Assembly (NCBI GenBank): GCA_030272155.1
Contig: CP126205.1
Span: forward strand, 2,344,501-2,408,500
Direction of reading: 5' to 3'
DNA length: 64,000 bases
Source: Tetradesmus obliquus
Lineage: Eukaryota; Chlorophyta; Chlorophyceae; Sphaeropleales; Scenedesmaceae
The notes below the pieces were generated by a model. The model saw nothing but the letters and a program-made list of their open reading frames with translations, searched no databases and was not told the origin of the DNA. Of the stretch, positions 2,954 through 63,804 are shown in pieces. Each line of letters starts with the position of its first letter. The first letter of the stretch is position 1. The translations under genes were made by a program, and so were the position numbers.

Positions 2954-5586
2954 ATGAACATCAATATGCTGGGAGGGCCTGGCAGTTGGAGCCTGCGGCT
3001 AGCCAGTAGTGTGTCAGCACGGCATGCCGTGGTTGCCACAGCAGCAGCAGCTGTCGGCAGTGTGGCGTACGTGCGCACATGGCACCCGAAGACCATACCA
3101 CTGAAGGACCCCTCAAAGCAGAAGTGAGTTCAGCAGCTGGTGCTGGCATGGCGGCACACATGTCTTTGAGCGGTCATTATACCACGCAGCATACACATCA
3201 CCGTCAAAGGGTGCTGTGTTGCTCAGGTTATAGCAATGTTCAGTGCTTAAATTAGCCCAACACCGGCAGGTTGAACAGTTTAATATGCAATTTCTTGTTC
3301 TTTATGCTACTGCACGAGCGCCAGGTGCATGCAAATTTTGGTTGCACTGAGCTTCATCGGCCATACTGCCGCCATGAGGATGCATCAGTACATGCACCTA
3401 GTGCACACACAGTGACGCAACTGCGCCACCTTTGCTGCTACCGCTGCTGCTGTTTCTGCTGCCGCAGCCTTGTGCTAGACCGGCCTCTCATGGAGGCCAT
3501 GTGTGGGGCAATTGGCGAGGTGGCTCAGATCTGTGTCATGTACCCGCTGGAGACAATCAAGGTGCGGCGCTCATGCAGCATGTCATTTTTGAGCTTCGTT
3601 TGCAAGCTTATGAGGAAATTTGCTGCATCCGGCGTGACAAGACCAGCACCTTTGCACAGCGGCCTGCAACAGCTGTGTGTTGCATCTGGGTGCATCAGGA
3701 AGGATGAGTCTAATATATAGGTAATAGTGAACATAAGCATCTGGAAAATAGGCCTCTGTCAGGACAAACCGCTCTAGCTCAGCAATATACATGCAGGCTG
3801 CTTCTGCTTACTGGCATCACCCCAGTACAACTGCATTCCTTCCCCCCTGGATTACCATTGGCTCAGCAGATGAATAGCTCCTCTGTGTGTTGATTTGCCT
3901 GTGGCCGCAGGTCCGGTGCCAGTCAGACGGCATCGCAGCAGCAACAGTGCTGCAGCAGCTGCTGGCCAAAGGCGCGCCCTCAGCAGCACGCGTGCTGTAT
4001 GCAGGCTTTCTGTCAGCAGCCCTCAGTTCGATACTCGTTGGCAGCGTCCACTACGCGTCTTTTTGCATCAGCAAGCGCATGGCGCTGCAGGCGGCTGGCA
4101 GCAACGGCAGCAGCAGTGACGCCAACTTGCTGGCTGCAACAGTAGGCGCGCTGGCGACTGCACTGGTTGAGTCGCCAGTGGAGATGTTTAGGCACCAGGC
4201 ACAGGCGGGCGTTGGCAATGGCAACTTTTTGAGTGAAATGGTCACCAGCATGCAGAAACATGTGAGTGCCACCAAGCAGCGCTCAAGGGAGGCAACTTCA
4301 AGTAGGAATGCAGTTTGGATGTAGAGCAGAGCTAAAGCAGCAAAGTCAAAGCAGACGCGTGAACACACAGCAGTGCGGCAGCTGCTGAACAGAAGCACCT
4401 AGCATGAGCACCACATGGCAAAGCAGGCAGCAGCCATGCAGCAGGTGTGTACTTGGAAGCAGCTGGAGCTTGTAGCATCTGCATGCAGTTCACCCATGTT
4501 TGCTTGCTTTGCCAGCATCACAAGCACCTGCTGTGTGTGCTGCATGACACTAACACTAACTAACACTACTGTTGTGCTGCTTGCAGGGCCCTGGAGCGCT
4601 GTACTGGGGCTTTGTGCCGTTCCTGATAGAGTCCTTCCCGTATGACATAACGGAGCTGGGCACGTACAGCCAGCTGCACGACATGCGGGAGGAGGCGCTG
4701 AGGAAAAGCAGCCCGGGCAGCAAATGGATGGCGCAGGTGCCAGAGCAGGTGCGCATTGTTGTGTCTGTTTGCATGTCTGTTATGCTAGCAAGCCTTGTGT
4801 GGTGTTGGTTAGGCTGGACCAATCAGAGGCAGCGCAGCAAGTGCCAGAGCAGGTGCGTGGGCATGCGCAAGCGTGGGCTGTGAATGTTTCTCTGGTGGCT
4901 GTGTGAGCAATCATGCTTGTGTGGGGTGCTAGCGTTGGAAGCTGGCACTGTGGCTTGCTGTGGTTGGGCTGGTTCACAAGAGATGCGGCTTGGAGAGAGG
5001 CCCACCAGCAGCAATCTGTGGCACACATTGGCCCGGCAGTCAAATATAAACAGGCTGCTGACCTGCCGCCTTTTCCTGCCCAGGCGTGGGACATAGGCAT
5101 AGGCGCAGCAGCAGGAGTGGCATCGGTGCTGGTCAGCATGCCGTTTGACGTGATCAAGACCTACATGCAGACGCATTGCGCGGAGGCCGCAGCAGCAGGC
5201 GCTGGCGGACAGCTGGCAGCTTTCTTTGCGACAGGTGCGGCTTTGATGACCCTGCTGTTTAATCAGGCACCTGTGTCTTGCATGCGTATAAATGTGTCAG
5301 CATGAGTTGAGCTGGATTCGGCGCCACCTGATGTGTGTGAGCTCGTGCTGCAACAGTACATTCAAACTGGCGTTTCCATATGCACAATCTCTTCTCGTCC
5401 TGCCTCACCTTGTGTGCATGTCCTCTTTGCCGTCCTGCAGGCAGCAGAATGGTAGCCGCAGGCGGCCCCGGTGCGCTGTTTGTTGGGCTGGTGCCGCGGC
5501 TGGTGCAGCAGGTGCCCAGCACCACCATCTGCTGGTGGGCCATTGAGCAGGCGCGTGACATGCTGGAGCCTTACACCAAGCCCTAG
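2954..5586 (+). CDS. mitochondrial carrier family (SLC25) protein
   Basis: Six exons in phase: 2954-3123, 3468-3561, 3911-4261, 4587-4748, 5084-5234, 5441-5586; 357 residues, normal for the family. Carriers of this type move metabolites across the inner mitochondrial membrane through a three-fold repeat. The signature P-x-[DE]-x-x-[KR] is seen as YPLETIK (residues 82-88), SPVEMFR (176-182) and MPFDVIK (278-284), one per repeat, each after a Gly/Ala-rich helix. The N-terminus is short and Ala-rich with a basic patch before DPSKQ. The segment LYWGFVPFLIESFPYD after repeat 2 is characteristic but I cannot assign a substrate. The start is the first ATG before an exon ending in a GTGAGT donor. The 3' end of exon 4 is echoed in the following intron and the tail of the last exon is repeated three times after the stop. 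Confidence 0.88.
4830..4866 (+). repeat. echo of carrier exon 4 donor end
   Basis: The end of exon 4 (GCGCAGGTGCCAGAGCAG followed by GTGCGC, 4731-4754) recurs here as a near copy with its GTGCGT donor, about 100 bp into the intron. Direct orientation. Confidence 0.6.
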
Positions 5587-5639
5587 GGGGTTCGGCGCTT
5601 GCAGGAAAGGGTGCCTGCTTGCAGGATAGCAGTGGCTCA

Positions 5640-5980
5640 CCAGCACCATCTGCTGGTGGGCTAATGCGCAGGCTCGTGACATGCTGGAGCCCTTCACCAA
5701 GCCCTGAGGCTTGCAGGAAAGTGCCCTGCTGCGGCTGGGTGTCCCGGCTGGTGCAGCAGGTGCCCAGCACTGGCATTTCTGGCGATTAGGCGTTGAGCAG
5801 GCGCGTGACATGCTGGAGCCCTACACCAAGCCCTAGGGCGGGCTAGATGCTTGCAGGAAATTGCCCTGCGGCGGCTGCCGGCTTGCAGGAACATAGTGAT
5901 CTAGCAGCACCATTTGCTGGTGGGCCATTGAGCAGGCAGCAAACATGTTGGAGGCCTCCACTGAGCTTCAGGGCCCTAGA
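5640..5980 (+). repeat. three decayed copies of the carrier last-exon tail
   Basis: The last 60-100 bp of the carrier gene, encoding the motif EQARDMLEPYTKP and stop, recurs at about 5640-5707, 5734-5836 and 5903-5979. The first two copies keep the RDMLEP(F/Y)TKP-stop frame. The third is more diverged (EQAANMLEAST). All are direct repeats in the 3' flank, at a spacing of roughly 120-140 bp. Confidence 0.85.
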
Positions 5981-7285
5981 CACTTGCAGCAGACTGCCCT
6001 GCAGCAGCTGCCTGCTTGCAGGAACGCAGTTGCGGCTGGCGCGGGTGCTGATTGTTGCAGGATGCATGATTTGTGCAGCGGTTGCACATATCGCAGTGCA
6101 GCCATCATGCTGACAAGGGTCGTTTTCAAGATTTGCTGCATCTCTGCCTCTGCTGCAGCCCAGAACCATTGTTCAGCATAAGCAGCGTAGCATCAGCAGC
6201 GTGGCATGGATTGGCTATTGGAGCGGCAGTTGCTGCAGCTCGCGTGACTAATTGGTCAATGAATCAGCTGCACTGCGGCTGCTGGCTTGGGACTTTTTAT
6301 CTAGCTGGGAGATATTGTTGTGCACGAATGTGCCGGTCAGGGTACTGCCAGCTTGCACCTTCCTGTAAAGGTCTCGTCCAGTGCTGGCTCAACCCCTCTG
6401 ACAAATGCATAGGTCGTAGTTTAGTGCAGGTGGAAGGTGCAGCAGCATGATTGGTTCAACTTTGGGTGCTGTTTTACATCAGGGGTTTGCACATGAGGAC
6501 GGGTGGTTTGTGTTCATGCTGCCTCAACATTGGTCACCACTGCTGTACAGTGCCGCTGCTTCTGATGACTAGCGGCCTAATGCAGCAACCAAGAGTATGG
6601 CAGAGCTGGCAGCCGTGGCTTTGCAGCAGCGGTGATGGGGACCCCTGAAAATAGAGGTTGTAAGGCCGTCTTACGCATCAATGCGTAGGCATCGCAAGCC
6701 GTGTGTGATGCCTACAAGCAGCAGCTGTGAGTGCTGCTGTGTTTGTGTGGCGTGGTGGGCGTCCTTCTACCACCTAACAGCGGCGTGGTTTCGGGCACTG
6801 AGAAAGTGCCAGGTTGCAAGTTGTTAGCTGCTGTGGCTGAGTTTGAACTCGCACATGGTCAACATGTCACAAGACTAGCTGTTATTGCTGATTCAGAGCC
6901 AGCCGGGGGAAAACAACTTACAAGGAAAACACCAACGGACTACATGACTGCCGCTACAACTGAACCTGTATCATCGTTCAAGCAGGTAGCAGGTGAAAAC
7001 CAAGAAAATTCATCCAAACCAGGTATGAGGCCTCATCTCGTCATCAAATAAGGATCATCCCCGACGCACAAGCAGCGCTCTATCTCTGACAGGAGAGAGC
7101 TGCAGCTGCTACAGGTTGCACACCTGCATCTGCAGGGCTACCTTAGTAGCATTCAACGATTTCATCGCCCACCATGCCTCTAAAAAAAAACATGCCATCA
7201 GCCGCAGCTGGCAGAGAACCAACTCAATGGCAACAGAGGAGTAATTTCATTTGCAGAGGCCTGGCACGAGCTGTCACTTTCTTTT
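5981..7285. other. no recognisable gene; 3' flanks of two convergent genes
   Basis: This lies between the carrier (+) and the GT49 gene (-), so both 3' ends face it. A TGTAA, the usual chlorophyte polyadenylation signal, occurs near 6364 on the plus strand and near 6922-6918 on the minus strand. No coding exon, tRNA or element was identified. Confidence 0.4.
6918..6922 (-). terminator. candidate TGTAA poly(A) signal of the GT49 gene
   Basis: TTACA on the plus strand is TGTAA on the minus strand, 364 nt past the GT49 stop. TGTAA is the known polyadenylation signal of green algae. A five-base match is weak evidence alone. Confidence 0.3.
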
Positions 7286-8403
7286 TCACTTTTCACATGA
7301 CATTGCCAGCTCAGCAGCCAGCCGCTGCTTGAACTGCTCGTAGACCTGGCTGATCATGGCCAAGTGCGCGTCATCAGTTGCTGTGCCTGGCACAGGCCGC
7401 CAGCTGCTGCTGCGCTTGTGGGGAGCTGTGACCATGAACGCATCCGACAACACCTGCAGCAGCAAAATGCGTTCTGATAGAGTGAGGCCCACGACCAACG
7501 AATGCTGGGGTGCAAACGCAAACGGCAATACTGACCTGCAGACACGCCTCTACCGCAGCCATGCACACTCAGTCCGGCATAGCGCCGGCAGGGCAGAGAA
7601 TGTCAATGGCATGGCCAACACAAGGCGCCTTGCCTATTAGGCAGCTGCAGAGCCCATGTCCTGCAGACACACAACTTCTCGTAATTCCTCTACTTGCTTA
7701 AACCCATGTAATGATCCCATGAGTCCTTTTTCATTGGTATCCTGCCATCCACCTGGAAGCTGTCGCCAAGCTGCTTGCAGTGCCAGGCATGCTGCGCTTT
7801 GTTCAGGCCATGCTGTGCAGGCATATATAATGTCATCACAAGCACAACATGCCCGCTGTTCTGTGTCCTGCCTATGCTCATTCAATTATTTTCAGATTTG
7901 TAAAAGCAAGCCCACCTGAAAGCTGTAGCCGAGCTGTGCACAGTGCCAGGCATGCTGCACCTTGTTCAGGCCATAGCCCCGAAAGGCCTCATCATACAGC
8001 GGCAGCTGGCCCTTTACTGCCACACCCTGCGGCTCGAAATACTCACAGTACTTCAAAGCATATGCCTGCCCACATGCTGCTGTAACATCTGCTGCATCAA
8101 CTGCTGCTGCTGTGGTTCCGGCACCGCCTGCTGCAACACCTGCTGCGCCAGTGCTTGACACTGCTGCTGCTGCTGCTGCTGCTGATTCAGGCGCGCTTGA
8201 ACCTAAAGCACTTAAAGCCAGCCATGCAGCAACATTGATAGGCTGCCTCTCAGGTGGAAAAGCCCCACAGTGGAAAGGCTGCACTGTCCCAGCTGCGAGT
8301 GCAGCTGCCAGCTGCTGCTTATTCCTGGGCACTGCAGCAGGCTGGCTGTCAGGCAGCTCCTGCTGCAGCACCAGCTGGAAGACAGGAAGCACGAGCATGA
8401 CTG

Positions 8404-8436
<33 letters not shown>

Positions 8437-9089
8437 TGTCTGGCTGCAGCAGCTGCAGCGCCCAGGGCTGCAGCAGCATCTCCTGCAAGCCTTCACCAAA
8501 AATGAAGTCTCCGTCTGCACACAGCACCAGCGGGGTGGCTGCCTGACTCAATGCTAGGTTGCGCAGCGCATTGATGGGGTACAGCTGATCATAGCTGGGC
8601 AGGTATGAAGCTGTGGGGTCCAGCAGGGGGTGCTCTGCTGCAGTGACGCCTGCAGCAGCAGCAGCAGCAGCAGCAGTGGCAGCGCCATCAGCATTCCAAT
8701 ATGAGGACATGTGCATTGGTTGAGTACAGCTGGTCATAGCTGGGCAGGTATGAAGCTGTGGGGTCCAGCAGGGGGTGCTCTGCTGCAGTGACGCCTGCAG
8801 CAGCAGCAGCAGCAGCAGCAGCAGTGGCAGCGCCATCAGCATTCCAATATGAGGATATGTGCATTGGTTGAGTACAGCTGGTCATAGCTGGGCAGGTATG
8901 TGGCTGTGGGGTCCGGCAGGGGGTGCTCTGCTGCAGTGACGCCTGCAGCAGCAGCAGCAGCAGCAGCAGTGGCAGCGCCATCAGCATTCCAATATGAGGA
9001 TATGTGCATTGGTTGAGTACAGCTGGTCATAGCTGGGCAGGTATGAAGCTGTGGGGTCCAGCAGGGGGTGCTCTGCTGCAGTGACGCCT

Positions 9090-9133
<44 letters not shown>

Positions 9134-9386
9134 GGCAGCGCCATCAGCATTCCAATATGAGGATATGTGCATTGATTGGGTACAGCTGGTCATAGCTGGG
9201 CAGGTACGTGGCTGTGGGGTCCAGCAGAGGGTGCTGTGCCGCAGTGATGCCTGCAGCACAGCAGCAGCAGCAGAAGCAGCATCAGATTATAAGGATATGT
9301 GCATTGATAGGGTACAGCTGGTCGTAGCTGGGCTGGTATGTGGCTGTGGGGTCCAGCAGGGGGTGCTCTGCTGCAGTGACGCCTGC

Positions 9387-9455
<69 letters not shown>

Positions 9456-10235: not shown

Positions 10236-10272
<37 letters not shown>

Positions 10273-22953: not shown

Positions 22954-25278
22954 TCACGGCCGGCTGCTTGCCCTGCGCCCGCCTGTGGCCCAGCGGCTTC
23001 CTGCAAGCTTGTTCCTGCGAGCATGCTTGAGCACCTCATGCTGCAGGAAGGTCCTCACAATCTGCACCAAGTCATCTGCTTCTGTTGGCAGCTGGTAGTC
23101 TGGATAAACAGATGCAGCTGCCCTGCCTGGGCTAGCTGATCTGCTGCGGCCAGCCGAAGGAGTGCTGCTGTTGGTGCTGTGCATGGCTGCTGCAGGGGCT
23201 GCTGTGCCGCGCCGGTGCCTGCCTTCGGGCTGCAGCACCCGGGGCCTGGGCCTGCACCTGTTTTGCTGCTGCTGCTGCATCTTTTGCTGCTGCGCGAGCC
23301 GGTTCATGCGAGGGCTGACTGCGGTTCACAAATAACCCACACAGCAAACAGACAGACAGGTTTGGCAGGGCCTGGCTGTTTTTAATTTGCGCTGTTAGCT
23401 GGTCAGCCTGACCAACGGTCGGGTCAGGGTCAACTGCCACACGAGCAGCACATGCGCATGGCATTGACCAGGGCGTTGTGTTCAGGCAGCTGAAAGTTTG
23501 GGCGCTGTTGCTGTCACTGCAACTTGCGTGACGTGAACCTCGTCTTGCAGTGGTGTGCGTCTCACCTGGCACCTCACTCTCTTCAAAGGCGTCATCTTCG
23601 CAGTCCTCGTCAGAGTAATCTGAGCTGTCATCATCATCCCAGTCATACTCATCATTAATGACGCCCCACCTGCACATGAGCAGTGCCCACACACATGTCA
23701 CCAGCTACTATAGCACAGGAGTACTGCTGTATGATGTAACTTGTGCAGTGACATCATACATGCTGGCAGCATGTGCGCATGCTCAGTCTTAGGCTCGGCG
23801 AAGGCACCCACTCTGCCACTAGCAGCAGTGAGCATTATATAGATATACAGTACATGGGTCAGGCCCAGCCCACCTGTATCTCACACATGCCAGCCGGATG
23901 AGCGCTTCAGGAAACTGCTCAGGCACTATCACCTCGGGCCCCAGCGCCGACGCCATCGCAGCAGCAGCAACAGCAGCAGCATTCGAAGTGGCCTCAGCAT
24001 CCCGCCCCATGCGGTCTGAAGCAGCAGCGCGAGCCAGCGCGTGCTGCGCCCCAGGCCCGAGGTATGCTGAGCCAGATGCTGCAGCAGCAGCTGCGGCTGC
24101 GCCGTGCAGCAGCATGTTGGGCGTGGCAATGCTGCTGGCACGGTGGCCTGGACGGGAGGGCAGCGGCTCGGCAGATGGCGGCCGTGTCTTTGCCTTCAGC
24201 GCCTGTGCAGAAACAGGAGCAGAAGAGGCACCAGCAAATACAGCATGCCGATCATGTGAGCCACATGCGAGATGTGTGTAACTGAGACCTGAGTTGTTTG
24301 TTGCACCAAACCACCGGCCAACCAGTGGGCAAATAACATGATAAACTTGAACAACCAACCAACCCAGTGCTTAGGCCTGCTTGCTTGCAGGGAAGCGCTT
24401 GTCTCTGTGTGCGTCCACCACACAACAAGGATTGCAGCGCAGGCTACCTGGCACCCCGCAGACCTTACCAGGCAGGGCCGCCTGTCAGACAGCAGGTAGA
24501 ACACGTCCTCCACTGCAGACAGGCTCTTGCTGTCCTGGCTGATGTGCAGGTCAAACGCGAGCTTGCCCAGGCTGCGCAGGTCCATGGTCAGCCTGCAGAC
24601 AGCGCATATGTGTTCTGTATGTTTTGAAGTGCACATGGCCAATGAACATGCGATATGGCACTTGCTGAATTACCAAAAATGTATTGAGTCGCTTTCATGC
24701 GGTTGATATGCCTGCTGCGTGACATGAGCCGCACCTGTCTGCCACCACCTGCACACCGCCCCCAAGCAGCTCATTGTAGCCATAACACCTCAAGCCCCGG
24801 CACCATACAACAACCGGCTACTGCACAATGTCCTTCATTTTCCTGGCTGCGCGTGCCCTCACCTGTCTGCCACCACCTGCGCACCACCTCCAAGCAGCGC
24901 ATAGTAGCCATAGACCTCAAGCAGGTCCCCAACTGCAGCAGTCCACCAATCACAGCCAGCTGCTCATTGCTTGTGCCCTCACCTGTCTGCCACCACCTGC
25001 GCACCACCTCCAAGCAGCGCATAGTAGCCATACACTTCCAGCAAGTCCCCAGCACACTGCTGCAGCATCCCACCAATCACCGCCAGCTGCTGCTCGGCAT
25101 TTGATAACAAACTGCCTGTGGGGCCCACCAGCAGGTCCCCAATGAAGAGCTGTGGCCTGCCCCTGGATCCCGATGCCAGCGGTTCCTTGATGTCTGCTGC
25201 TATGGCTGCTGTGATAGCCGCCACTGCTGCATCCGGATCGCGTACGTCTATAGGTGCACCTGCACGTGTGCCACGTTT

Positions 25279-33545: not shown

Positions 33546-33564
33546 AGCTGGCTGTGCTGGTGGT

Positions 33565-40111: not shown

Positions 40112-40185
40112 TAGTTGAAGGGTGCACTCTGTTTGAATGGCAGCTCTTCTGCACAAAATGTTATGTAGCGATAATGAAGAATGGG

Positions 40186-40268
40186 CGAGCAGTGTGAGGT
40201 TGGTGCTGCTAGGTTGAAGCAGGGGCTGCAGCAGCTGGTCAACATGGACACACTGGTTGGGGCGTGAC
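40186..40268 (+). repeat. echo of the aminotransferase last-exon tail
   Basis: The final about 80 bp of coding sequence (GAGCAGTGTGAGGTTG through GACACGCTGGTTGGGG and stop) recurs 160 bp past its origin, ending at a TGA instead of TAA. Confidence 0.92.
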
Positions 40269-40279
40269 AGGTCGTGCTG

Positions 40280-40910: not shown

Positions 40911-42940
40911 ATGTCGCTGACTCTGCTGTCCCGGAGGCAACCCCCACCTGCACATCACGGAATGCCTGTGCCGATACGAACTGCTGCCAGTCGTTTGTCT
41001 TGAGTCTTTTGCTACGTCTTGTACTCCAGTAGCAGTAGAGCTGTCCCTAGAGGCAGTCGCAAGCAACGCCCACCGTCCTTGCTGCCTTACTGCTGCCTGC
41101 AGGTTGCAACAGCTGGGTAACTGCAAGCTTGTGCAGCCACGCCAGCGCAATGTAGCTGCGCATGGGATCCTGGACTCATTCAGGTATGGTACAGCAGCAG
41201 TGTAGCAGCAGAGGTGACAGTCAGTGAAGCACTCTGAGCAGTGCACAGCTCAGGCCTGGGCAGCACCTGCCAGCACTGCTGTTCTCATGAAGGGTGGTAT
41301 GTTCATGTTTGCTGCTTGCAGGAAAGAACGAGGCTTGCCCATCCCTGGTCAGCAAGGGAGCACCACTCAGACCATTGATAAGCCACAGCCTGGGGTGAGC
41401 AGTGGCGTGGATGGTGCAGCGGCAGCAGCAGCGAGCGGCGGCAGCAGCAGGGGCAGCAGCAGTGGCAGCAGCAGCGGCAGACCAACAGACAGAAAGACAG
41501 CTTGAAGGCCAGCCTGACAAAGTATTACCATGCACCCGCATCTGCAAGCTGCGTGGTTGCAGCCTAGCAAGCAAAAGCAACTTCACATGCTGTGCCAGTG
41601 CAAGGAAACTGTCCAGGCAGCAGCAGTTGTTGTTGTTCGTGATGCTGCCAGCTTCATCACACCATCGGTAGCTGATGTTGCTCAACTCCAGTCTAACTTA
41701 CTCGTGTGCAATTTTCATGGTCAACTGCATGGTCAACCTCACCCTGGACTTCACTACGACGCAGCAGCCCAGCAAGCAGCAGCAAGCAGCAGTAGACGAG
41801 GAGGAATGCCCAGTGGAGTGCGTCACCGAGGTGAGGCAGCAGTCTGACTGAAGCCCCTTTGCGATGGTATGACAGTGAGCCAATGAGGTTCGTTTGGTGT
41901 TAATATCCCACAGTGGATGCGTCACTGAGGTGAGGCAGCAGCCCTGATGGCGGCAAGGTCGCCTTTGCAGTGATGTGACGGTACTGTGGGGTTTGCGATG
42001 TCTGATTGCCTGCAGCAGTAGCATGTCATTGCTGGCCTGATTGCCGGCAGCCCTACCGGCAACTGCAACAGCAGCTGCAGGCATCCACACAGCTGCAGCT
42101 GTTTTGCTGGGTTTTGCTGACGACGCTCTGCACATATTAGCATCGCAAACTAGCCCATTACGTCTGAGCCCCAACCCTATGTCTATGTGTTCATGCTGCA
42201 GGTGTTTACGCCAGAGGAGTTCCAGCAGGCGCTGCAGGCAGCAGGGCCCAGCACGCTGGTGGTTGTCGACTTCTTCAAGACAGCATGCGGCGCATGCAAA
42301 TTCATCTACCCTGGCTTTGTGAAGATGTGCCGCGAGTCGGCCTCACAGCAGCAGCAGCAGCAGCAGCAGCAGGAAGACAGCCAGCCAATTGTCTTCCTGA
42401 AGCACAATGTGTGAGTGCTTGTGGTGTGGCTTCAGATCGTGGCTGAGGGTGCTGATGTTGGTTGCCAACTTGCATATTAGCTGTGCTCAGCTGCTCTGGC
42501 ACAGCAGAAGCTTGGACACCAGGGGATTTCAGCTGAACTTCAACCTCAGCTGCGGCAGCAGCAGCAGCAGCAGCACTGCACTTATAAACTCTGCAAGTAG
42601 CCATGCTTGTACTGCCTGCTGATATGACGATGATGAAGTGGAGGTCACGGCGCCGTGCAAGCAGCACATCGCCTGCGTCACGCAGCAACCTGCACATGTA
42701 CCCTCAATTCACCACCAATATTTTGATTGTGATCATGCTTGCAGGTATGATGACGATGAAGGAGAGGTCACGGCGCTGTGCAAGCAGTACAACGTGCGCA
42801 GCGTGCCCAAGTTTGTGTTTTTCAAGGCCGGCCGTCAGCTGGAGAGCTTCTCCACAAGGGATAAAGCCAAGGTTGCAGAGGCGATCTTGAAGCACGCAGA
42901 GCCCGGTACCATCGAGTTCGGGGACTGGGTTGCTGAGTGA
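40911..42940 (+). CDS. ACHT-like (atypical) plastid thioredoxin
   Basis: Exons: 40911-40996 (tentative, weak donor), 41103-41183, 41322-41394, 41672-41830, 42202-42410, 42745-42940; 267 residues. The last two exons form a thioredoxin fold: VFTPEEFQQAL, STLVVVDFFKTACGACKFIY with active site CGAC (codons at 42286-42297), then YNVRSVPKFVFFKAGRQLE with the cis-proline. The V(D)FF...C-G-x-C-K pattern and missing CGPC resemble plant ACHT/TRX-like proteins, which pass oxidising equivalents to chloroplast targets. The N-terminus (SLTLLSRRQPPPAHHGMPVP) is rich in Ser, Arg and Pro, fitting a transit peptide. A polyQ insert (42348-42372) splits the fold after helix 2. The exon at 41672 was chosen by phase. 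Echoes of two exon edges lie in the introns. Confidence 0.75.
41910..41950 (+). repeat. echo of a thioredoxin-gene exon donor
   Basis: CAGTGGATGCGTCACTGAG then GTGAGGCAGCAG copies the exon end at 41811-41842 (GTGGAGTGCGTCACCGAG with GTGAGGCAGCAG), donor included, about 105 bp downstream. Confidence 0.8.
42618..42690 (+). repeat. echo of the last thioredoxin exon start
   Basis: GATATGACGATGATGAAGTG then GAGGTCACGGCGCCGTGCAA copies the start of the final exon (42745 on), about 125 bp upstream. The acceptor AG has decayed. Confidence 0.85.
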
Positions 42941-50042: not shown

Positions 50043-53000
50043 TCAGTCAAACTGGATCTTCTGGGCTCCCAGCTTTGAGGCCCCCAGCTTCATCGCACCT
50101 TTGTGCACAGGCTTGGCCCCAAGGCCACCAGAGCCGCCAGCAGCAGCAGCAGCACCACCAGCCGGCCGCACCGGCCGCGACCTCACTGCTGCTGCTGTTG
50201 GGCTGCTGACAGTGCTGCTGCCGGTGCTGTGGCTGCCGCCTGCTGCTGCTGCTGGCTTGACAGCAGTGCTGCTGCTGCCACCGCCCAGGCTGCCTGTATC
50301 CAGGCTATCCCAGCCGTCTCCGTCATCTATGTTATTCCAACCGCCTGCTGCTGCTGCTGCTGCTGCAGCTGCTGGCCTGCTGCTTGGGGTGCTGCTGCTG
50401 CTGCCTCCCAGCTTCGCTGCTGCAGCTGGTGCAGCCGGCCTGCTGCTGCTGCTGCTGGCTGCATTGCGCGAGGTGCTGAGGCTTGCCAGCCGGTTGCGAG
50501 CCTGCAGCACAAGCAATGGCAGCGGCAAGGGAGGGACCAAAATGCAACACAAAACACGAAGTGAGTGGGCTGCTGCAAAAGGTTAACAAAGCAGATGACT
50601 ACAAAGGCACTGCTGCAGCAGCGAAGTGGGGCAATAACCACCTGTTGCATGTCGCTGCATGTTGCGAAATGCACGCTTAACATGCAGAAATGCGCAGCTA
50701 CGGCCAGCCGCCGCACCTCCTGCTCTGCTTTGTCCATATCTTCAAGCTCATCATCAAAGTCTTCATCCCAGCCACCCTTGCCACCAGCAGCAGCAGCAGA
50801 CAGCCCACCCAGCCCACCAGCAGCAGCAGCACTGCCACCTCCCAGCCGCATGGCATGCGCGTGGCTGCCAGTGCCGCTGCTGCTGCTCGAGCGCCGAGCT
50901 GCGACTGCAGCTGGCGCAGCAGGAGCAGGAGCACCTGCTGCTGGGGCTACTGCTGCTGCTGGGGCTGGCACAGCAGAAGGGTTGGGAGCTGGCGCCCCAC
51001 CCACCAGAGCAGCAGATGATGCTGCAAGGCTACTCATGGCCCAGCCAAGCATGCCGCTGCTGCCGCCTGCTGCTGCTGCACCGCCGCTGCCAGCTGCTGT
51101 GGCGGCTGCGCTGCCGCCGGCTGCTGCAGCCGCTGCTGCTGCTGCTTCTTGCAGCTTAGCGTCGTGCTCTCTCAGCTTTGCAGTGAACGCATCCATGCAG
51201 CACAGCGCAGATGCGCGCACGTCTGCAGAAAGCAGCAGCGGCAGCACAGCCAGCTGCTGTAAACGGGCAGCATGAGGGCTACAGCTATACACGCTGGAAG
51301 CAGCGCCTCGATGCGAGCAGGGCATGCATCTGCACGCACAACTTGGCCTCAACAGCAGCAGCGACAACAACACAGCCTGGCGCAAGCACTCTTAAACTGT
51401 CAACCTCATCCGCACCTGGCAGGCGATCTACGCACAGCGGCGACACGGCTGGCAGCACCCTCAGCACGAGGCCAGTTACATCATTGCGTGTGCATTCAAA
51501 AGTTAAGTAACTCCGGCCTTCCACACCTGTCAGGGGGTCGATGCACAGCGGCGAAACGGCTGGCAGCGCCCTCAGTGCAAGCTCGTTTGCATCATAATGC
51601 TTGACCGTGGCGATCAGCGCTCGCAGCGCAGCAACACGCGCGGGCGGGAAGGAGTCCTTGAGCGCCCTGCCGAAGGCATTCAGCAGCACCTGGGATAGCA
51701 GAGATGAGGCATGTTTGTGAGGGCAAGGAAATGAGATGGAGGCAGCAGGATTGCCAACACGGGCGACTACACAACGTTATCAAAGGATGAACTGGTGCTG
51801 GGTAACTGGCAAGTTCAACTGCTGGGCCAATGCAGCTGCTGTCCTGCAGCCTATACAATTGTACACCCAGATCTCCAAGGTTCCAGGCTTCCCTTCCGCA
51901 CACCACTGCTTGCAAGCTGAACTGCCGGTGGCTGGTACAGTGCCAGCGCCAGCTGGAAACAAGGCTCCTTACGAAGTCAAGCAAGATAGTGCTCACCTTC
52001 TTGCAGTATGTGTCGCCCAGGTATTGTGCAATGTTGCCCAGCAGCACTGTGGTGTTGGCACGAATGGAGGGCTCGTTGTCAACCTGGCAGCAGCAGCACA
52101 TAACCAGTAGGACATTTGCAAGCCAATGGATTGCCAGATCCATGCATTTTGCATGGTCAGACACTACAGGGGTAAACCATGAGCAGCTTTGCACTCAGAT
52201 GCAGGACTGGCTGACACAGCAGCGCGTGTGCACTAACAAGCTGCTGCTTGCTGTGAGCTGATCAGTCCAGCAAACCTTGTTGATGCTGCATGACCAGACC
52301 ACTCAACAAGCAGCAGCAGCAGCAGCAGTATCGCACCTGCAGCCTGCTGAGGTGCTTCAGCAGGTTCTGCGTCAGCGTGGCCTGCCGCATCTTGGGCGCC
52401 AGCACCAGCAGCGACTTGAGCGTGAGCTCGCGGATGTATGCATTTTCATCTGTGAACCCGGCAGACAGCGGCGGGTAGATCTGGCCCTCAATGACGTCCT
52501 GTAGCAGCAGCAGCAGCAGCAGTGGCAGTCCACCGTTATACAGCAAGTTTCATCACCAGAGGGGGGGGGGGCAGCATGTCGAAGCATCCTGTAGCATGGC
52601 ACAGCAGCGGGTGCTCATGGCGGTGAGCTGCTGGCTGTAGCTGTCGATGCTCTCCAGCAGGTGGCATCAACAAACTCTCAGCAAAAAGCCATAATGTGAC
52701 ATGCCATGCCATGCCATGCCATGACGTGACATGACATGAAATGCCACGACGTGACATGTGATACGTGACATAACCTAACAGCTCACCATGGTGAGGTGCT
52801 GGACGTCCTTGTCATGAAATTGCATCAAGATCCACAAAGCTCAGTACAAAATAATGTTAGTATGATATAACATGACATGACATAACAACAACTGACCTTT
52901 GTGAGGTGCTGGCGGTAGGTGTCGATGCTCTCCAGCAGGTTGCATCAACAAGCTCAGTGAAACATAACATAACACGACATGATGTATCCATGGACTCTCA

Positions 53001-55558
53001 CCGTGGTGAGGTGCTGGCCATAAGTGTCGATGCTCTCCAGCAGGTTGCGGCGCAGGTTCCTGTCGCTGCTGGCAAACAGCCGGCTGAGGCTAGGCACCAC
53101 GCGCCTGATGAACTCATCCCCGGACAGCATCCTGCGGCAGAAATAGTAACAGAGTGTCGCACCAGTGCAGGGTGCTTATGAGGGGTGGGGGCGGGTGCAT
53201 CGCAGGCACAGCAAAAAAACAGCAAACAACGAGACAACTGCGCTTCCCCCCGCACCTGCCGATCAGCATGAGGCTGCTGACAGCGCTAGCAGGGGCCCCT
53301 CCAAACTCCAGGCTGCTGCTCAGCAGCGGCAGCACATATGACAACACAATACACAACAACAGCAACAGGTGTGATAGCCGCACCTGCCGATAAGCATCAA
53401 ACTGCTGACAGCGCTAGCAGGCGCGCCGCCAAACTCCAGGCTGCTGCTCAGCAGCGGCAGCAGCTTGCGCACCGCCACTGGCTCGGGGATGGCTGGGATC
53501 ATGGCCGGCAGCTTCTTAAAGAAGGAGTCCTTTTCGGCGCTGTCTTTGACTGCATGAACAGGAAGATAGCAGGCGTGAGGCAGGTGAATCAGGGGCAGCA
53601 AGGACAGCAGGGTCATGGTAGGCAGCTTCTTGAAGGGTTTTTTTTCCGGCGCTGTCCTTGACTGCATGAACAGAAAGATAGCAGGCGCAAGACAGGACAA
53701 TCAGGGGCAGCAAGGACAGCAGGGTCATGGCAGGCAGCTTCTTGAAGAAGGAGTCCTTCGCGGCGCTGTCTTTCACTGCAGTACAAGTGGGGTTGGCAGG
53801 CAAGGAAAAGCAAAAGCACAGTAGCAGACAGAAAGATCAACTGATGAGCGCTGAAACTGCCCCAACTGCATGCTATATGACGCATGCAGTGGGTGTGTTG
53901 GCGTGAGGTGAGGATTCATTACGTGCTGCGCTCTGCACAGAGCCCACCACCTTCACAAGTGGTGTTTGTCATGTGTAGTTCGATTTGAGTACGTCGAACA
54001 TGGAGACCTTCTAGAACTCACGTGAAATGTTCTCCATGAAGCCCACCACCTCCACCAGCTTGTTGTTCAGGAAGCGGCTCTCAGCCACCTGCAGCAGCGC
54101 CACACACACCGGCAGCAATCACACGGGTCACAGAGCCACGATATTGTCTGCGACTGCGCAGCACTCTAAGGACAACTACGCACAAAGCTCCAGCTGCCAC
54201 AGCTTTCCTCACATCCGTTGTGAATGGAGCCAGCAAACAAATTCTCAAAAGCGGTCTCTGTGCAACACACAGTGTCTGCAGCAAGCACACTGCGCGCAGT
54301 AATGAGGCGATGGCTATGAAGCACGCAGATGCCCTATCAGCTGTGCAATCAGCACACCTGTGCCGGGTTTGGGCGGCGGCCAGCTTTGGGTAGTCAGCCA
54401 GCAGCTCGAACTATCATTACGTCCTCACCGTCAAGTACTGTAGTACACCACTGCCATCCACTATTAAACCACGGCCATCAACGATTACTCACCTTTGCTG
54501 GGTTTAGGCGGCGGCCAGTTTGGCTGCTGAGCAGCTTCTGGTAGTCAGCCAGCAGCGCGGGCGGGATGACATCGGTGCGGCGCAGCTGCTCCACCGCGGT
54601 CAGCGGCTGCCCGCTGAACACCTCCTGCAGCAGCAGCAGCGGCAGCAGAAGCAGAACAGCAGCAGCGTGTAGCTGTGGTGTGATTAGCGCACAAGGTCTG
54701 GTGCATGGGAGAAGATGGTGTGTGGCGAGTGGGGTCTGCTGCAGCAGCACAATGCAGAGTGCAAGGAATCAATGGCTGGGCTACAAGCACATTCGCAACA
54801 AACTGCGTCGCACTGCGACGAGCTGCACCATCAACTTGATCAAAACACCTGCAGCCGCACCTGCATCATGCAGCCAAGCCCCCAGCTGTCCACTGCCCAG
54901 GGCGGCCCCTGCTGCACCGCCTGCCACTCGCACTTGGCCAGCTCAGCGGGCTTGTACTGGCTGGCCACCATCCAGCTGGCGTGCTTCAGCGCAAAGTCGC
55001 CTGCGTGACATGATACGTGACATGGCATTGCACAGGTTGTTATGTTTGCATTCAAATTTGATTTGGATACCTGCCGCTCGGCTTCGTAAGGTGCCAAGCT
55101 CAGCGGGCTTGTGCTGTGCTGCCACCATCCTGCTGTTGTGCATCCGCCACAAGTATAATAGAGAAACTGATGTATAATAATCTGAACCACTTTATATTTG
55201 ACTGATGTTTCACTCAACCTGAAGCAAGAGCCACATCAGTGAGAGTGGCCAGCGCGACGCCACCCACATAAGAGGATGCACATGCGTCCCCCAGCATGTG
55301 CCTCGTCACAGCGCTCAGATGGGTTTGAAACTTGCTGAGCGACACCAGCCATCACACCCTCCGCATAATGTTTGCTGCTGCGCTACTGCTACATCAGTCG
55401 CAACCAGTCATGCAGCCGCTTGGCCATCATGCATCCTGCTGCACCTGTCAGCGCGTGCTCTGAGAGCAGGTCGAAGCCATGCAGCTTCCAGTCAAGGCTG
55501 TCAGTGACCACCACAGCAGCCATGCACAGGTAGCCGTGGATCTGACAGGAAAGACACA

Positions 55559-55614
<56 letters not shown>

Positions 55615-57735: not shown

Positions 57736-60700
57736 ATGGCGACAGTTGCTGATGCGGCATTCTATGAGGTGCTGGAAGCAGATTTACGAGCCCTCAGCTC
57801 AGAAGCTCGCAAGACAGACAGCATTGCCACGCAGATCACGGGCTGGCTGCAGCACACAGACTTCCCGCAGATCAAGGAGTGCGCTGAAAGGGCGCTGCTG
57901 AGGCTGCGCGCAATTGCACAGGAGGGGCGGGGCGTGGAGGCAGTCAGGACCAAGGTGAGGCCTGGCTGGCTGATAAAATGTGGTCATATGCAGGTTCTTC
58001 AGGTCATGTTTAGTGGCAGGGTTATGCTGTGTATGTGTGTGAGTGGAATGGGTGAGCAGCAAGCAATGCCTGGTCAGCAGTTGCCTGCGTATGTCCTTTT
58101 GGATGCGTGTGCCGCAGCAGCAGCCTGTCTGCTGTAGCCAGACTGTAGCATCGACATATATCCTGCAAGTATGCTGACTTGCATTCCAAGCACTTGCTTG
58201 TGTCGCAGCAGCCTCTTGAGTGCTTTCCTGCAAGCAGTTTGTCTGTTATGTCCTCCAACGTGCACTGCAGCATGGTCGCATCAAGCACCTGCTACTTTTT
58301 TGTGCCTTGCAGGAGATTCTGCGGCCCTTCCTGCTGGTCTGTGAGAGCAAGAACCCGCGCCTGATTGGCGCTGTGCTTGGCTCAATACAGAAGCTGCTGG
58401 CACACAATGCAGTGTCAGATGAAGGGAGGCAGCAAATCATTCAGGCACTGCACCAGGTGTGCATAAGCATGAAAGCTGTGCGTACGCGTGCCCGGATGTT
58501 TTCCTGTAGCAGCTGCTGCTGATTACGTGCAGGATTGCTGCTTGCGACAGTGCTGCAGCTGGATGTCCCCTGAGCGCAGCAGCAGGGTAATTGAGCTAAC
58601 AGCTGGGGCTGTCCCAGTCTTGCCAGCACCAGCACACTGCAGCCTAGATAAGCGTAGCAGTTGAGTGTGTCTTGAAGGGCAAGCGCAACAGAGCCATTCC
58701 ATAAGGTTACAGCCAGTTGTGCTGCCGCTGTTTTTCTGCAATCGTCACCTGATATGCAAAATGCTGGTGCTGTGATGATGCATCTGCTGCACTGCAGGTT
58801 GAGCGCAGCAGCGACGACACAGTGAAGCTCAAGATCCTGCAGACAGCCCTCACGCTGCTGCAGAACCCTAGCAATGCCGATGACCAGGTACGGCTCCGCA
58901 AGCAGTGCGATGCAGATGCTCTGCAACAGGGCAGGTGGTGTGGCTGCCTTGCGGCCTATGCGACATGGGCCGCCCATGGCATGCAACATGGGATGGCGCA
59001 TCAGCTGCATTCTGCGGTGTCACTCAGTTGGTGTTGATGCTGGCTGCATGATCTGTTCATGACCTGTGCTTCTCACCGCTGTTGCTGTTGCAATCCTGTC
59101 TCTGGCTTGCAGGAAGGAGCTGGGCAGGTGCTGTCGCTGTGCATGCGCATCTACTGCCACAACAAGAGCTCGCCGACAGTTGTCAGCACAGCCGCGGCCA
59201 CAGTGCGCCAGGCTGTGGCATTGCTGTTTGACCACGCAGTTATGGGCACCAGCAACAGCGGCAGCAACGCTGGCGTGGATGGCGTGGCGACAGGGCGCGA
59301 GATTGCGGCAGTGATGCTGCTGCAGGATTTGCTCAACATGTGTGCAGGTGCGGGGCATGCGGTAGCTGGGATGATTTACGCAGCAAACTGCGTTGTGCTT
59401 GCTTTGCACCTGGGCTCAAACTGTATGTGTTTACGCCACTCCCCAAAAAACAAGCAGGGCGCAGCAGCGCAGCCGGCCGGCAATGCCAGTGCAGTATGAG
59501 GGCGAGGATGTTGCTGACATCCACATGCTTTCTTCTGCGCACAATCGCCTGGTTTGCTGCACCATGCTGCTGCAGGGCTTCTGCCACCTGTCTCAAATGT
59601 CCTTTTGTGGGCCGCCTTTTCGTGCTGCACCTGCTTGAGTCTGCTGCTGCAGGGCAATGACTGTGCTGAGATTGACATGTGTGTCTGCACAATGCTGCTG
59701 CAGGGTCGCCTGCCACGTGGCTCAAGTGTCCTTCTGTGGGCCGCTCCTTTGTGCTGGACTTGTTGGAGTTTGTGCTGCTGCACCGGCCAGCAGCCTTCCA
59801 GGCACACAGCGCGTTCAAGGCGCTGCTGCAGACCAAGGTAGGTGCAGCTGCGTGATGAGGCACGCTGCACATAACATGGCAAATCTCTATTGGTCTGCTT
59901 GCCTCCAACAGCTGCTGCACGGCATCAGCACTGCAGGTTATATCACGGCTGCCCTGGAGTGTGCAGAATCTGACATTTTGCTGATGCTGGCACACAGCAC
60001 TTTGTATACTGCTGCTTCCCTCGTATGTCACCTTGCCTTGTACGCCTGTTGTATCTGCTTGTTGCTGCAGATGGGCCCTTGCCTTGCTGAGCTGTCAGTA
60101 GCAGCACTCGATCCAGAGGTGGAGCCAGCTTCAGCAGGCGAAGCCAAGCTGCTGCTGCGCTGTGTCGGGGCCATGCTGCGCAAGCATGCGCTGCTGCTAC
60201 CGGAGCTGGCGCCAAAGATGATTGAGACACTGCTGGCAGGCTGCGGAGCCAGCAGGTTGGCCTGCTCAGCACATAGCCTGTTGCCAAGTAGAAGGCTGCG
60301 CTTGTCAGCCACTGTGCATGCTTGTCAGCCACTGTGCATGCCTGCTAAATTGATTCTGCTGGGAAAATCGGTCTCGCCCAAGCTGTTTGCGCAAGTAGAC
60401 ACGGTTGAGTTTGAGTCGTGAGCAGTGTTGGTTGCAAGCGCCTGCTCAGCGCCTGTTCTCAATGCCGCAGCTGCGCATGCCTCCTGCCCTCCACGGCAGC
60501 ACTCTCACGCAAAGTGTACCTGTACTTTACAGGTACACATGTAACCACCACACTCAAGGGTGCACACTTATGACTACTAGGTCAACTTGCTTTGCTGCTG
60601 CTGCTGCTGCTGTGCTGTGTTTTTGTGCCTTTCTCTCTTTCTGCAGGATGCCGTGGCAGCGGCTGCTGTCGTTGCAAGTGCTGCGCTGGCTGATGAGCGA

Positions 60701-63700
60701 CCCTCAGCTGCTGTATGCGCTGTTCAGCGCCTACGACATGTCCATCCACCATGACGTCAATGCAGTGCATGACACGCTGCAGGTGGCGCTGGAGATCGTA
60801 AAGGTGAGATGTTTTTATTTACAGAAATAGCACCAGCACTGTTCAGTGCCTACGACATGTCTATCCACCATGACGTCAATGCAGTGCATGACACGCTGCA
60901 GGTGGCGCTGGAGATTGTCAAGGTGAGATGTTTTACTTTACAGAAATAGCACCAGCACTGTTCAGCGCCTACGACATGTCCATCCACCATGACGTCAATG
61001 CAGTGCATGACACATTACAGGTGGCGCTGGAGATCGTAAAGGTGAGATGTTATAATTTACAGAAATAGCACCAGCACTGTTCAGTGCTTACGACATGTCC
61101 ATCCACCATGACGTCAATGCATGACACACTACAGGTGGCGCTAGAGATCGTAAAGTTAAGAAGTTTTTAATCTACAGAAATAGCACCAGCACTGTTCAGT
61201 GCCTACGACATGTCCATTCACCATGACGTCAATGCAATGCATGACACACTACAGGTGGCGCTCGAGGTCGTTAAGGTGGGGGCTCTACTCACAAGCAAAC
61301 ACCTGATCAAACGACATACCATTATTTTGGCGTTGTGAAGCAGGCATATGCATTGGAGGATGACTTGATGGAGCGACTCAGCGGATGCACACCAGCTTAT
61401 CAGGCAGGTGCCGCTGACGCATTGCTTCTGCACTCACATAACTGCAGGCGTATGTGAAGCAGGCTGATGCATCCGAGGACGATTTGATGGAGCGTCTCAG
61501 CAGCATCTATAAGGGCAGGGCGGATGGCAAGGAGCTGCAGATTGACGTGGACAGCGCAGTGGTGGTGGCGGCCGCCACACAAGAGGTGCGGGGACTGCTG
61601 CTGCTGCTGCTGCTGCTGCTCAAGCATGCATACAGTTCTACCATTTTCGTGCATCTGCGGTAGCAGCTTGTGTTTGAAGTGCGCTGCAACTGAACGCCAT
61701 GCGTCGTGACTGTGCATGACAGCGGTCATCCCAAACCCTGGCTTGTCAGTGGGTCAGCCACACTCTGCTGTATCCTGTAAGCTAGCGGCAGCCAGACAAA
61801 CCAGCAGGTCTTACAGATGTAGCGCCAACATGCTGCATCACTGTGCTGCTGCTGTTGCCCCCACTGCAATGCAGGCGTGGGTGGCCTACCTTGCTCTGGA
61901 CATGCTGCTGTCTGTGGTGGCCTGTGTTGAGACCCTGGCAGATGCAGTTGCCAGCACCAACGGCAGCGCATGCTCAGAGCAGCTGCAGCTGGCGCCTCTT
62001 GCCACAGCCACAAGTGAGCACCGCATAGAGCATCAAATTGTGTAAAGACCCGACCACACATGCTAACAAAGGCTGCCAGAGCTTGCCATGCAGCTGCAGC
62101 TGATGCAACGGACACTTGAGCATGTCCAAGGTTTGCATGTGTGCCACGCTTGCCAGGCAATCGTGTGTCAACTGGCTGAATGGGCTACTGTCAAATGTTG
62201 CGCCAGCTTGAAAGCTGTCCAGGCTGACATGTGCACACGCAAATGATGTTCATAGCACATGGTAACCAGGCAGAGTCAGCACTCCTGCCACGTGCCTGTG
62301 CCGTGCTTCAGGTGGCATGGAGCGCAGCAGCAGCAACAGCAGCAGCTCACTGCTGAGCATCGTGCGCAGCGGCTCCGCCGCAGCAGTAGCGGCTGCAGCA
62401 GCAGCAATGACTGGCAGCGTGGGCACACCCAGAACACCCGTCACCCCAGGCACGGTGTTATGCGGCAGCAGAGCCAACAGCAGCCCTTCAGCATCTGCTG
62501 CAGCTCTTGCAGCTGAGACTGGCGCGCTCAGGCTGCGCAAGACTAGCAGCACAAACTGCGGCAGGCTGCAGGGGCGGCAGCAGCAGCAGCAGCAGCAGGG
62601 GCAGCCGCCGCTGGCTGCTGCCACTGTGTCCACGTTGGTGGATGTGCTGTGGCGGCCGCTGCTGGCTGGGCTGAGCAGCGTGCTGGGCCGCTGCTATGAT
62701 GGCAGCAGGCATGAGGCACTGATGCTGCAGGTGAGACTCAAGAACTGACATGATAACTTACTAACCCAATTTTTAACGTTGCGCCCGCTACTGGAAACAG
62801 ATTGAGTACCTCGCCTTGGAGCCGATCAGGCAGAATGCGGCAAGGAATTACAGACAATACTTGCAACTGCGCAGGGCGTCATACCATAAAAACCATCATT
62901 GGACGGTGTCTTCGTCACGTCTTGCCAGCTTTCAAGATGAGGCCGGCCTTCTACTGAAATAGTCCCCAGCCTTGTGGCTCCCCACTCTTCGATGAGGATC
63001 CCTCCTGTGGGTACTGTCTTCTTATTTGAATGTGGTGCTGCAGGTGCTGCAGGCATACCAGCGCTACACCTACAGCGCTGGGGCTCTTGGGGAGGTGCAT
63101 GCCAGGGATGCTTTCCTTGCTGCTTTGTGTGAGGTTGCTGTCACGCCTGTGGCAGCAGCAGAGGAGGCTGCTGCTGCTGCCGGCAAGGTTGCTGGGCGTG
63201 TGTCGCTGGACGGCGCGCAGGTGCGGTTGATGTTGGTGTTGATGTTGAGTTATGCTGTTGCAGTGTTGAGCAGCAGCAACACAGCTGATTGCTCTGAATG
63301 CCTCCACCTGTGTTGCCACCTAGCCGCAGAAGTAGCTGCGGTTCCATAGTTGCTTTGGCGAAAACCAGAAACGCCAAACAAGCATATTGCCAAACACGAA
63401 GAACAGCCAGCCCTCCCTGCATTCATGCGTTGAGCATCTCTAACGGGTAGCGCTCGTTGTCATAACTGCAGGCCGGGCGCACCAGCATTGCAGCGAGCTT
63501 CCTGTCAGACGACCAGTCAGCCTCCTCCCCAGCCGCAGCATCCTCTTCCGCAGCAGCAGCAGCAGCAGCAGCGGGCGAGCTGCGCTCTGGTCAGGTCTCC
63601 AGCGGGGCCGGCCCTGCGCTGCTGAATGCGGCGAGCATCAGCGCCTCAGAACTGGGTGTGCGCAATGTGCACGCGCTGCGCATTCTGTTCAACTGCGCAT

Positions 63701-63804
63701 TCAGGCTTGCTGACAGCCTGGGGCCAAGCTGGGTGCTGGTTGTGGAGGTGCTGTGCACACTGGACCGGCTGCTGCCTGCTGCTGGGGGGCCGGGTAGTAG
63801 CAAG
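57736..63804 (+). CDS. MON2: MON2-like Golgi/endosome trafficking protein, 3' end outside the window
   Basis: Twelve exons in phase (790 codons): 57736-57954, 58313-58456, 58798-58887, 59113-59347, 59704-59837, 60071-60255, 60647-60803, 61448-61585, 61875-62013, 62312-62730, 63044-63220, 63472-63804; one more may start at 63908. MON2 is a large HEAT-rich relative of the Sec7-type Arf-GEFs that lacks the Sec7 domain and works at the trans-Golgi and endosomes. Matching blocks: LEADLRALSSEARK and FPQIKECAERALLRLRAI (DCB region), ILRPFLLVCESKNPRLIGAV, STAAATVRQAVALLFDHAV, MLLQDLLNMC, SFVLDLLEFVLLHRP, WQRLLSLQVLRWLMSDPQLL, then LFSAYDM. Exon 10 is an Ala/Ser/Gln-rich insertion. The start is the ATG just before the DCB match. 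Exon 7 has four tandem echoes, and exons 5 and 8 have one each. Confidence 0.9.
59545..59655 (+). repeat. echo of MON2 exon 5 start
   Basis: CTGCTGCAGGGC then TTCTGCCACCTG and GTGGGCCGCCTTTTCGTGCT copies the exon 5 acceptor and first about 70 bp (59690-59775), roughly 130 bp upstream. Confidence 0.8.
60804..61285 (+). repeat. four tandem copies of MON2 exon 7 end
   Basis: Units of about 116-119 bp start near 60841, 60960, 61079 and 61195. Each holds GTTCAGTGCCTACGACATGT through GCGCTGGAGATCGT(A/C)AAG and a short spacer GTGAGATGTTTTTATTTACAG followed by AAATAGCACCAGCACT. The first two copies are over 95% identical to the exon. Later ones lose bases, including a 6-bp loss in the third. The spacer begins with a donor and ends with an acceptor-like TTTACAG. 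Confidence 0.95.
61340..61400 (+). repeat. echo of MON2 exon 8 start
   Basis: GAAGCAGGCATATGCATTGG then AGGATGACTTGATGGAGCGA copies exon 8 (61454-61500) about 117 bp upstream. The acceptor is lost. Confidence 0.85.

Follow-up and report, generated by a model that had tools for sequence, protein, structure and literature searches.

Repeated coding sequence within one gene is familiar from tandem exon duplication and mutually exclusive exons, and internal gene duplications, reportedly treated by Gao and Lynch in 2009, share with the case described here local direct duplications within genes. Introner elements are associated with a genome-wide change of intron content (PMC9860276), and Rogers-type intron gain and the potato RdRp case involve a tandem duplication that spans exon and intron and is hidden by splicing, the potato case having also copied the intron-exon structure (PMC4974935). 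Here, we describe exon echoes, short direct copies of exon starts and exon ends that lie in adjacent introns and 3′ flanks, in a 64-kb stretch of the Tetradesmus obliquus genome (C15:2344501-2408500, hereafter the window). The echoes are real and genome-wide, with local direct repeats far above controls. We tentatively lean toward reading them, at somewhat less than an even chance, as the outcome of recurrent backward template switches of ~120 bp, often onto a diverged allele, that are kept where splicing or a stop codon hides them.

The genome analysed comprises 104.66 Mb on 17 contigs. The sample consisted of the window and 24 other 10-kb stretches (304 kb in total), 19 of the 24 at fixed coordinates and five random; one more fixed-coordinate stretch, L003, consists of N throughout and was excluded from all counts. 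Exon models were obtained with our own splice-aware gene finder after unsupervised training on the 304 kb, all exons being predictions from genomic DNA only. The finder learned a donor consensus of CAG-GTG(A/C)G and an acceptor consensus of (C)TGCAG-G, the hyphen marking the splice border. Six window proteins, from the eight genes named as carrying echoes, were submitted to Pfam after hand-trimming and all six found matches (Mito_carr, Glyco_transf_49, aminotransferase I/II, Thioredoxin, SCYL1-like kinase with HEAT repeats, and MON2-like DCB/HUS), the kinase match of the SCYL1-like protein lying only just at the cut-off. A 16-exon gene and a small gene were left out of this set, and the gene names used in an initial annotation of the window were matched to our models by position. 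Rfam and tRNA scans of the window gave no matches. Low-complexity sequence (15% of bases) was masked in the repeat scans; this fraction and window 1-2000 abound in CAG/CTG-type triplet repeats, which occur in exons, as poly-Gln and poly-Ala, and in introns, often beside echoes.

A BLAST scan, counted in score bins of at least 28, yielded 281 near direct pairs, 10 near inverted pairs, and 2 direct pairs in a far offset band, and a diagonal scan found 416 local direct-repeat pairs against 0 in locally shuffled sequence. Exon-edge queries were kept for 522 of 1029 sites, after exons under 60 bp and queries with more than 15 masked bases had been dropped. These queries (278 donors and 244 acceptors) returned 248 direct matches, 0 inverted matches, and 0 matches when shuffled, which bears out the initial annotation's statement that no copy is inverted, the 10 near inverted pairs above belonging to the general BLAST scan. 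That annotation also placed copies of exon starts upstream and copies of exon ends downstream, which is mostly the case: matches to donor edges lay downstream 98 times and upstream 61 times, those to acceptor edges upstream 72 times and downstream 17 times, and outside predicted exons 85 matches were on the expected side while 20 contradicted the rule, some of these 20 standing, by eye, at doubtful exon calls. Within predicted exons, 85 matches were on the right side and 58 on the wrong side, a mixture of echoes called exons and true repeats. A right-side echo was found at 108 of the 522 tested edges, and in 58 of these it lay outside every predicted exon.

Within the window, 29 distinct local direct-repeat events were found at offsets of 85-175 bp, where more than 25 had been claimed, and they fall in all eight genes that had been named as carrying echoes (matched by position); 28 of the 29 touch a predicted exon edge. 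Copies past the stop, another part of the claim, were located in two genes, the carrier (5486-6033) and the aminotransferase (40183-40313). Larger offsets are also present, such as 32209/32418 and 37547/37789. Edge events number 73 in the 24 outside stretches, or 3.0 per 10 kb, and 28 in the window, or 4.4 per 10 kb, and in seven of the 24 there were zero events at 85-175 bp. Among six loci picked by protein family, pairs at 99-150 bp were present in L027, L028, L030, and L031 (L031 overlaps L030), and the scan gave none in the mutually overlapping L029 and L032, a weaker echo in L032 being seen by eye in partly masked sequence. The echo loci of the window are listed here by position and strand.

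5486-6033, plus strand: mitochondrial carrier, end of the last exon with the stop, then about three more copies at ~120-130 bp spacing whose decay, by eye, grows with distance
7749-7974, minus strand: GT49 exon end (7912-7974) with its echo (7749-7811), downstream in gene sense; offset 163, GTGG donor in both
8503-9430, minus strand: GT49 exon-start array (exon start by eye from the open reading frame list), about six copies of ~146-bp units, upstream in gene sense
24703-25091, minus strand: array in the multi-exon gene, about three copies of ~131-bp units
26986-27146, minus strand: exon start and upstream echo, offset ~111
32209-33699, plus strand: small gene, exon pieces present in several copies, offsets 158-209
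35473-35673, plus strand: aminotransferase exon-end duplicate, offset 115; codon-position differences (0,0,6), third only
36185-37459, plus strand: aminotransferase, complex arrays at two exon edges, units of ~115-139 bp
37547-37882, plus strand: aminotransferase exon end with a copy that lies 242 bp away, about two units
38925-39108, plus strand: aminotransferase exon start and upstream echo, offset 103, acceptor retained in both
40026-40313, plus strand: aminotransferase last codons with the stop, copied beyond the stop, offset 157
41811-41982, plus strand: thioredoxin exon-end copy, weak, offset ~100
42613-42794, plus strand: thioredoxin exon 3 start (42745) and upstream echo, offset 123, echo without AG
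51409-51595, minus strand: SCYL1-like exon end and downstream echo, offset 111
52614-53048, minus strand: SCYL1-like exon edge, three copies, offsets ~112 and 278
53251-53453, minus strand: SCYL1-like exon end and echo, offset 128; codon-position differences (1,0,6)
53487-53801, minus strand: SCYL1-like exon start, three copies at ~115 bp spacing
54355-54533, minus strand: SCYL1-like exon end and weak downstream echo, offset 135
54935-55154, minus strand: SCYL1-like exon start and upstream echo, offset 157
59557-59782, plus strand: MON2-like exon edge and copy, offset 128, 81% identity
60717-61278, plus strand: MON2-like exon end (exon to 60803) and four further copies at ~115-119 bp spacing; array single-copy in the genome
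61329-61501, plus strand: start of the next MON2-like exon (61448) and upstream echo in the same intron as the 60717 array, offset 118

In the MON2-like array at 60717, the differences are nearly all synonymous by eye, and one copy has a 5-bp deletion and a lost donor. Past its fourth echo, at window 61275-61330, stands what appears by eye to be an older decayed copy, which suggests that younger copies are those nearest the exon.

The spacing of the echoes was examined on 122 events at offsets of 85-175 bp, obtained by merging gapped matches scoring at least 26 with ungapped matches and collapsing arrays. Edge copies have a modal offset of 110-135 bp and a sharp lower limit near 90 bp, with 57 of 101 edge events at 110-134 bp. 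Ungapped pairs that touch an exon (292) include 5 under 90 bp and 105 at 90-160 bp, whereas intron-only pairs show no offset peak and 11 of 50 lie under 90 bp. For the anatomy, we used a set of 64 exon-echo pairs that rests on predicted exons and excludes copies more than 175 bp from the real splice site. On the exon side of the border, the homology in these pairs has a median length of 47 bp, and on the intron side 5 bp; the similar stretch usually comprises the exon edge with ~5 bp of intron, and the copies are not always strictly tandem. The lengths of exon part and spacer are anticorrelated (r = -0.67), which makes their sum, the step, the steadier quantity. In L022 and L026, some offsets are close to 245 bp, which suggests higher-order units spanning two steps.

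The 64 pairs are shared evenly between donor and acceptor edges (32 each), and two stop-codon ends also have copies. By manual count, 29 of 32 donor echoes retain GT and 23 of 32 acceptor echoes retain AG, with the neighbouring bases often different, and the presence of a donor or acceptor in most copies indicates that the source was not spliced mRNA. Copying from spliced mRNA was rejected on this ground, most echoes carrying GT or AG at the exon border. Donor echoes score a mean of 8.2 compared with 10.0 for real donors (one echo truncated by the stretch end excluded), and acceptor echoes 3.2 compared with 8.4 for real acceptors. At the inner edge of the 64 echoes, no splice signal was found above control (acceptors 2.92 versus 2.90, donors 0.37 versus 1.14), and in this the echoes are unlike exons. 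The intron parts have a gapped identity of 0.61 against a control of 0.515, with 27 of 56 pairs above the control 95% point and 9 of 56 above 0.7, and likeness of the whole unit, exon and intron part together, is clear in 9 of 56. In the arrays of L009, L013, and L025, some adjacent spacers differ and more distant spacers of the same array match at 80-99%.

A count against random placement had been proposed as the check on the echoes, and it was run here on the 304 kb with 400 random placements. Edge events numbered 101 against 68.3 expected (standard deviation 5.5), exon-internal events 4 against 18.9 (4.0), intron-only events 15 against 25.1 (4.6), and intergenic events 2 against 9.8 (3.0). 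The random arms were capped at the offset and 28 observed array events have longer arms; capped counts are 100, 4, 16, and 2 in the same order, and the 94 events with arms no longer than the offset give 77 at edges (50.1 expected), 1 exon-internal (15.4), 15 intron-only (20.7), and 1 intergenic (7.8). All four exon-internal offsets (114, 144, 102, and 126) are multiples of three, as are those of 34 of 34 ungapped exon-internal pairs, which come from five stretches with 21 in L008, and edge events are frame-neutral (36/37/28 over offset modulo 3). Of the two explanations first offered, selection that tolerates duplications hidden by splicing holds up on the exon-internal shortage, the in-frame internal offsets, and the frame-neutral edges, with the caveat that shortage and frame result are partly built in because an internal copy that breaks the frame would be called an intron by the gene finder. 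The other, a duplication process targeted at boundaries, did not emerge from the equal use of donor and acceptor edges, the two stop-codon ends, and an edge excess about explained by fading. Since few copies (9 of 56) stay recognisable without their exon part, the edge surplus is roughly as expected from the loss of intron-only copies, and boundary targeting is unnecessary; a rough calculation with 9 of 56 copies recognisable by the intron part predicts ~6 intron-only and 2 intergenic events, and 15 and 2 were seen. In-frame coding tandem repeats occur at L008:1437-2790, L013:1252-1998, and L021:7836-8400. The sample also holds a 1.2-kb direct repeat with 98.8% identity and an offset of 1456 bp, a recent large tandem duplication (L007:1-2752), and a direct repeat of ~0.8 kb with 95% identity and an offset of 518 bp (L017:4373-5686).

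The differences between exons and echoes were sorted by codon position in 57 of the 64 pairs, those with an exon part under 25 bp being dropped. Mismatches per site at positions 1, 2, and 3 were 0.061, 0.057, and 0.190, a third-position ratio of 3.2 (bootstrap 95% 2.5-4.1), and the 31 strictest pairs gave 3.0 (2.3-3.9). By our reasoning, a neutral copy beside a conserved exon permits a third-position excess of at most ~2. When exon-echo and echo-echo comparisons were placed side by side, they gave 0.078/0.053/0.176 and 0.093/0.067/0.200 (the latter at 37 edges), with an echo-echo ratio of 2.5 where we would expect ~1-1.5 under neutral copy. The simplest history for coding-type differences between intronic copies would be that they diverged as alleles and were joined later, and many echoes seem to preserve older or other versions of coding sequence. 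Third-position divergence is near-uniform over pairs and not clearly overdispersed (chi-square 71.5 on 56 degrees of freedom, P = 0.08, for all pairs; 57.1 on 47 for those with unlike introns). The initial annotation's picture of a continuous range of divergence survives only in part: third positions differ by ~0.19 with no clear overdispersion, though positions 1 and 2 are overdispersed. The early idea of full coding constraint on intronic echoes was abandoned because the aggregate codon figures show a mixture.

In the history that we tentatively prefer, direct duplications would arise repeatedly by a backward step of ~120 bp (mostly 90-170) and would land anywhere, blind to position. Those inside exons would be purged unless in frame, and those across a splice site or stop codon would be harmless, the copy becoming intron or 3′ flank, because the splice site attached to the intact exon stays in use. 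The visible population would stand at exon edges because copies stay recognisable mainly by their exonic half. The template would often be a diverged allele, carried by the homologous chromosome, instead of the same molecule, and such a template would leave exon halves that differ mainly at third positions, a splice consensus on both, and intron flanks that are hard to align. About one in six pairs (9/56) would be a plain same-template tandem unit, and some of these would expand into arrays with 3-5 or more units. On balance, introns would grow in ~120-bp steps, and the mean intron length of 462 bp in T. obliquus, compared with 230-302 bp in the four other algae tabulated (PMC5966456, Table 1), agrees with intron growth in the lineage. 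Assembly sizes of 208 Mb for strain DOE0152z and ~109 Mb for UTEX393 (PMC5552973) would, as we interpret them, fit two strongly diverged haplotypes. The further-reaching proposal that the introns are a fossil record of allele-to-allele stutter, with polymerases slipping back ~120 bases onto a strongly diverged homologous chromosome and each echo a preserved allele, is possible and, in our estimate, doubtful.

A number of observations weigh against the template-switch history. The data cover one haplotype, and the ~120-bp step has no proven cause. The 64-pair set leans on predicted exons, some of them doubtful, and the echo-echo set includes copies that the gene finder called exons, some of which may be genuine repeated exons. 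The strictest pairs depart from the neutral limit of 2 only moderately (P = 0.01). Overdispersion of positions 1 and 2 over all pairs (P = 0.012) implies that the pairs are not all of one kind, and frame-shifting indels (50, versus 12 in multiples of three) imply that the copies decay. The 15 intron-only events lack the ~120-bp peak, which we ascribe to fading. When 114 spacer pieces were compared by BLAST with the sampled stretches, several had short matches (~20-65 bp) at other loci, so the spacers are not all unique. Last, the gene for D1 protease, elsewhere in the genome (L032; 354 of 356 residues identical to PDB 1fc7, as expected for T. obliquus), has an acceptor-edge copy at 1819 for an exon start at 1910 (offset 91) with about five amino-acid changes and four silent ones, codons read by eye, and this echo looks neutral.

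Ordinary tandem duplication on a single molecule, after which the intron half decays neutrally while gene conversion from exon to echo or back keeps the exon halves alike, strikes us as rather unlikely: full-unit copies and arrays exist (60717, L015 4271/4465, L026 6100), and the weak intron homology in 27 of 56 pairs and the neutral look of the D1 protease echo speak for it, but the third-position ratios of all 57 pairs, of the 31 strictest, and between echoes lie above ~2, and frequent conversion should give many identical pairs where only 2 of 57 have no coding difference. Its simpler form, neutral duplication with exon-side survivorship alone, was rejected on 20 pairs with under 8% exon divergence, whose intron identity is 0.59 (4) and 0.64 (16) against controls of 0.515; a separate set of 61 spacers, of which 24.6% exceed the control 95% point against either flank, also counts against it. 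Duplication aimed at exon-intron borders, for example by RNA-templated or splicing-linked copying of exon ends, would account for homology that ends ~5 bp from the splice site, for a 110-135 bp peak confined to exon-touching events, and for edge events above random placement; we consider it improbable, as both kinds of splice site and two stop-codon ends are hit, young copies contain intron sequence, and fading roughly explains the excess. Little credence is given to an assembly artefact in which two diverged haplotypes were stitched together and exon edges appear twice, which would account for the synonymous character of the differences, for splice sites in both copies, and for the unlike flanks, and which is favoured by another strain having assembled to twice the size; against it stand arrays that reach 3-5 or more units, copies that have lost splice sites or acquired frame shifts, the otherwise open coding frames of the models, the exon-internal shortage by reading frame, and a D1 protease echo too diverged for an allele. 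Functional alternative exons or decoy splice sites under selection, for all that the third-position pattern, the kept GT and AG, and the near-real strength of donor echoes suit them, are very improbable given the frame-neutral offsets and weak acceptor echoes, and alternative exons were dropped because the inner-edge signal is at control level.

If the template-switch history is true, it would provide a mutational route to intron growth that can be measured and has a typical step size, with splicing as the filter, and the density of echoes would allow genome-wide estimates of rates, sizes, and selection. Should the echoes derive from the other haplotype, past heterozygosity could be read from a single haploid assembly, and if allele stutter is the cause, splicing would let fragments of foreign alleles accumulate beside exons while introns lengthen in typical steps. 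Gene predictors will mis-call echoes as exons, as our own finder did in the aminotransferase gene.

How the echoes relate to described systems depends in part on their spacers. Two spacers and the 60717 array were searched genome-wide and no copies were found beyond themselves, and a transposon or introner origin was dropped on this basis. Spacers at L009 662 and 1970 (minus sense) have short matches (~25-65 bp) elsewhere, for example a 43-bp match in L015 with 91% identity, which may reflect a small dispersed element or low complexity. Searches of the open-access PMC literature found, among the titles and abstract beginnings listed, no description of exon-edge echoes, which is no proof of absence. 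Mutually exclusive exons differ in that complete exons with acceptor and donor are repeated, whereas the 64 pairs here copy an exon edge only. Minisatellite-like arrays have counterparts in 60717, 24703, and L026 6100, but many other events are one extra copy with unlike spacers. With internal gene duplications the echoes share being local, direct, not inverted, and not dispersed (three stretches searched genome-wide), and they differ in their ~120-bp spacing, their concentration at the border of coding and non-coding sequence, and their third-position-biased divergence. Introner elements need related copies at many loci, whereas the two spacers and one array here are single-copy and a few other spacers match briefly elsewhere. 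Rogers-type gain creates a new intron from an exonic segment whose own AGGT gives both new sites, whereas the copies in our 64 pairs span an existing splice site and, in the predicted gene models, existing introns are enlarged. What differs from Rogers-type gain and the potato case, in which a new intron arises, is the often repeated enlargement of existing introns or 3′ flanks at a typical step of ~120 bp, seen at 58-108 of 522 edges.

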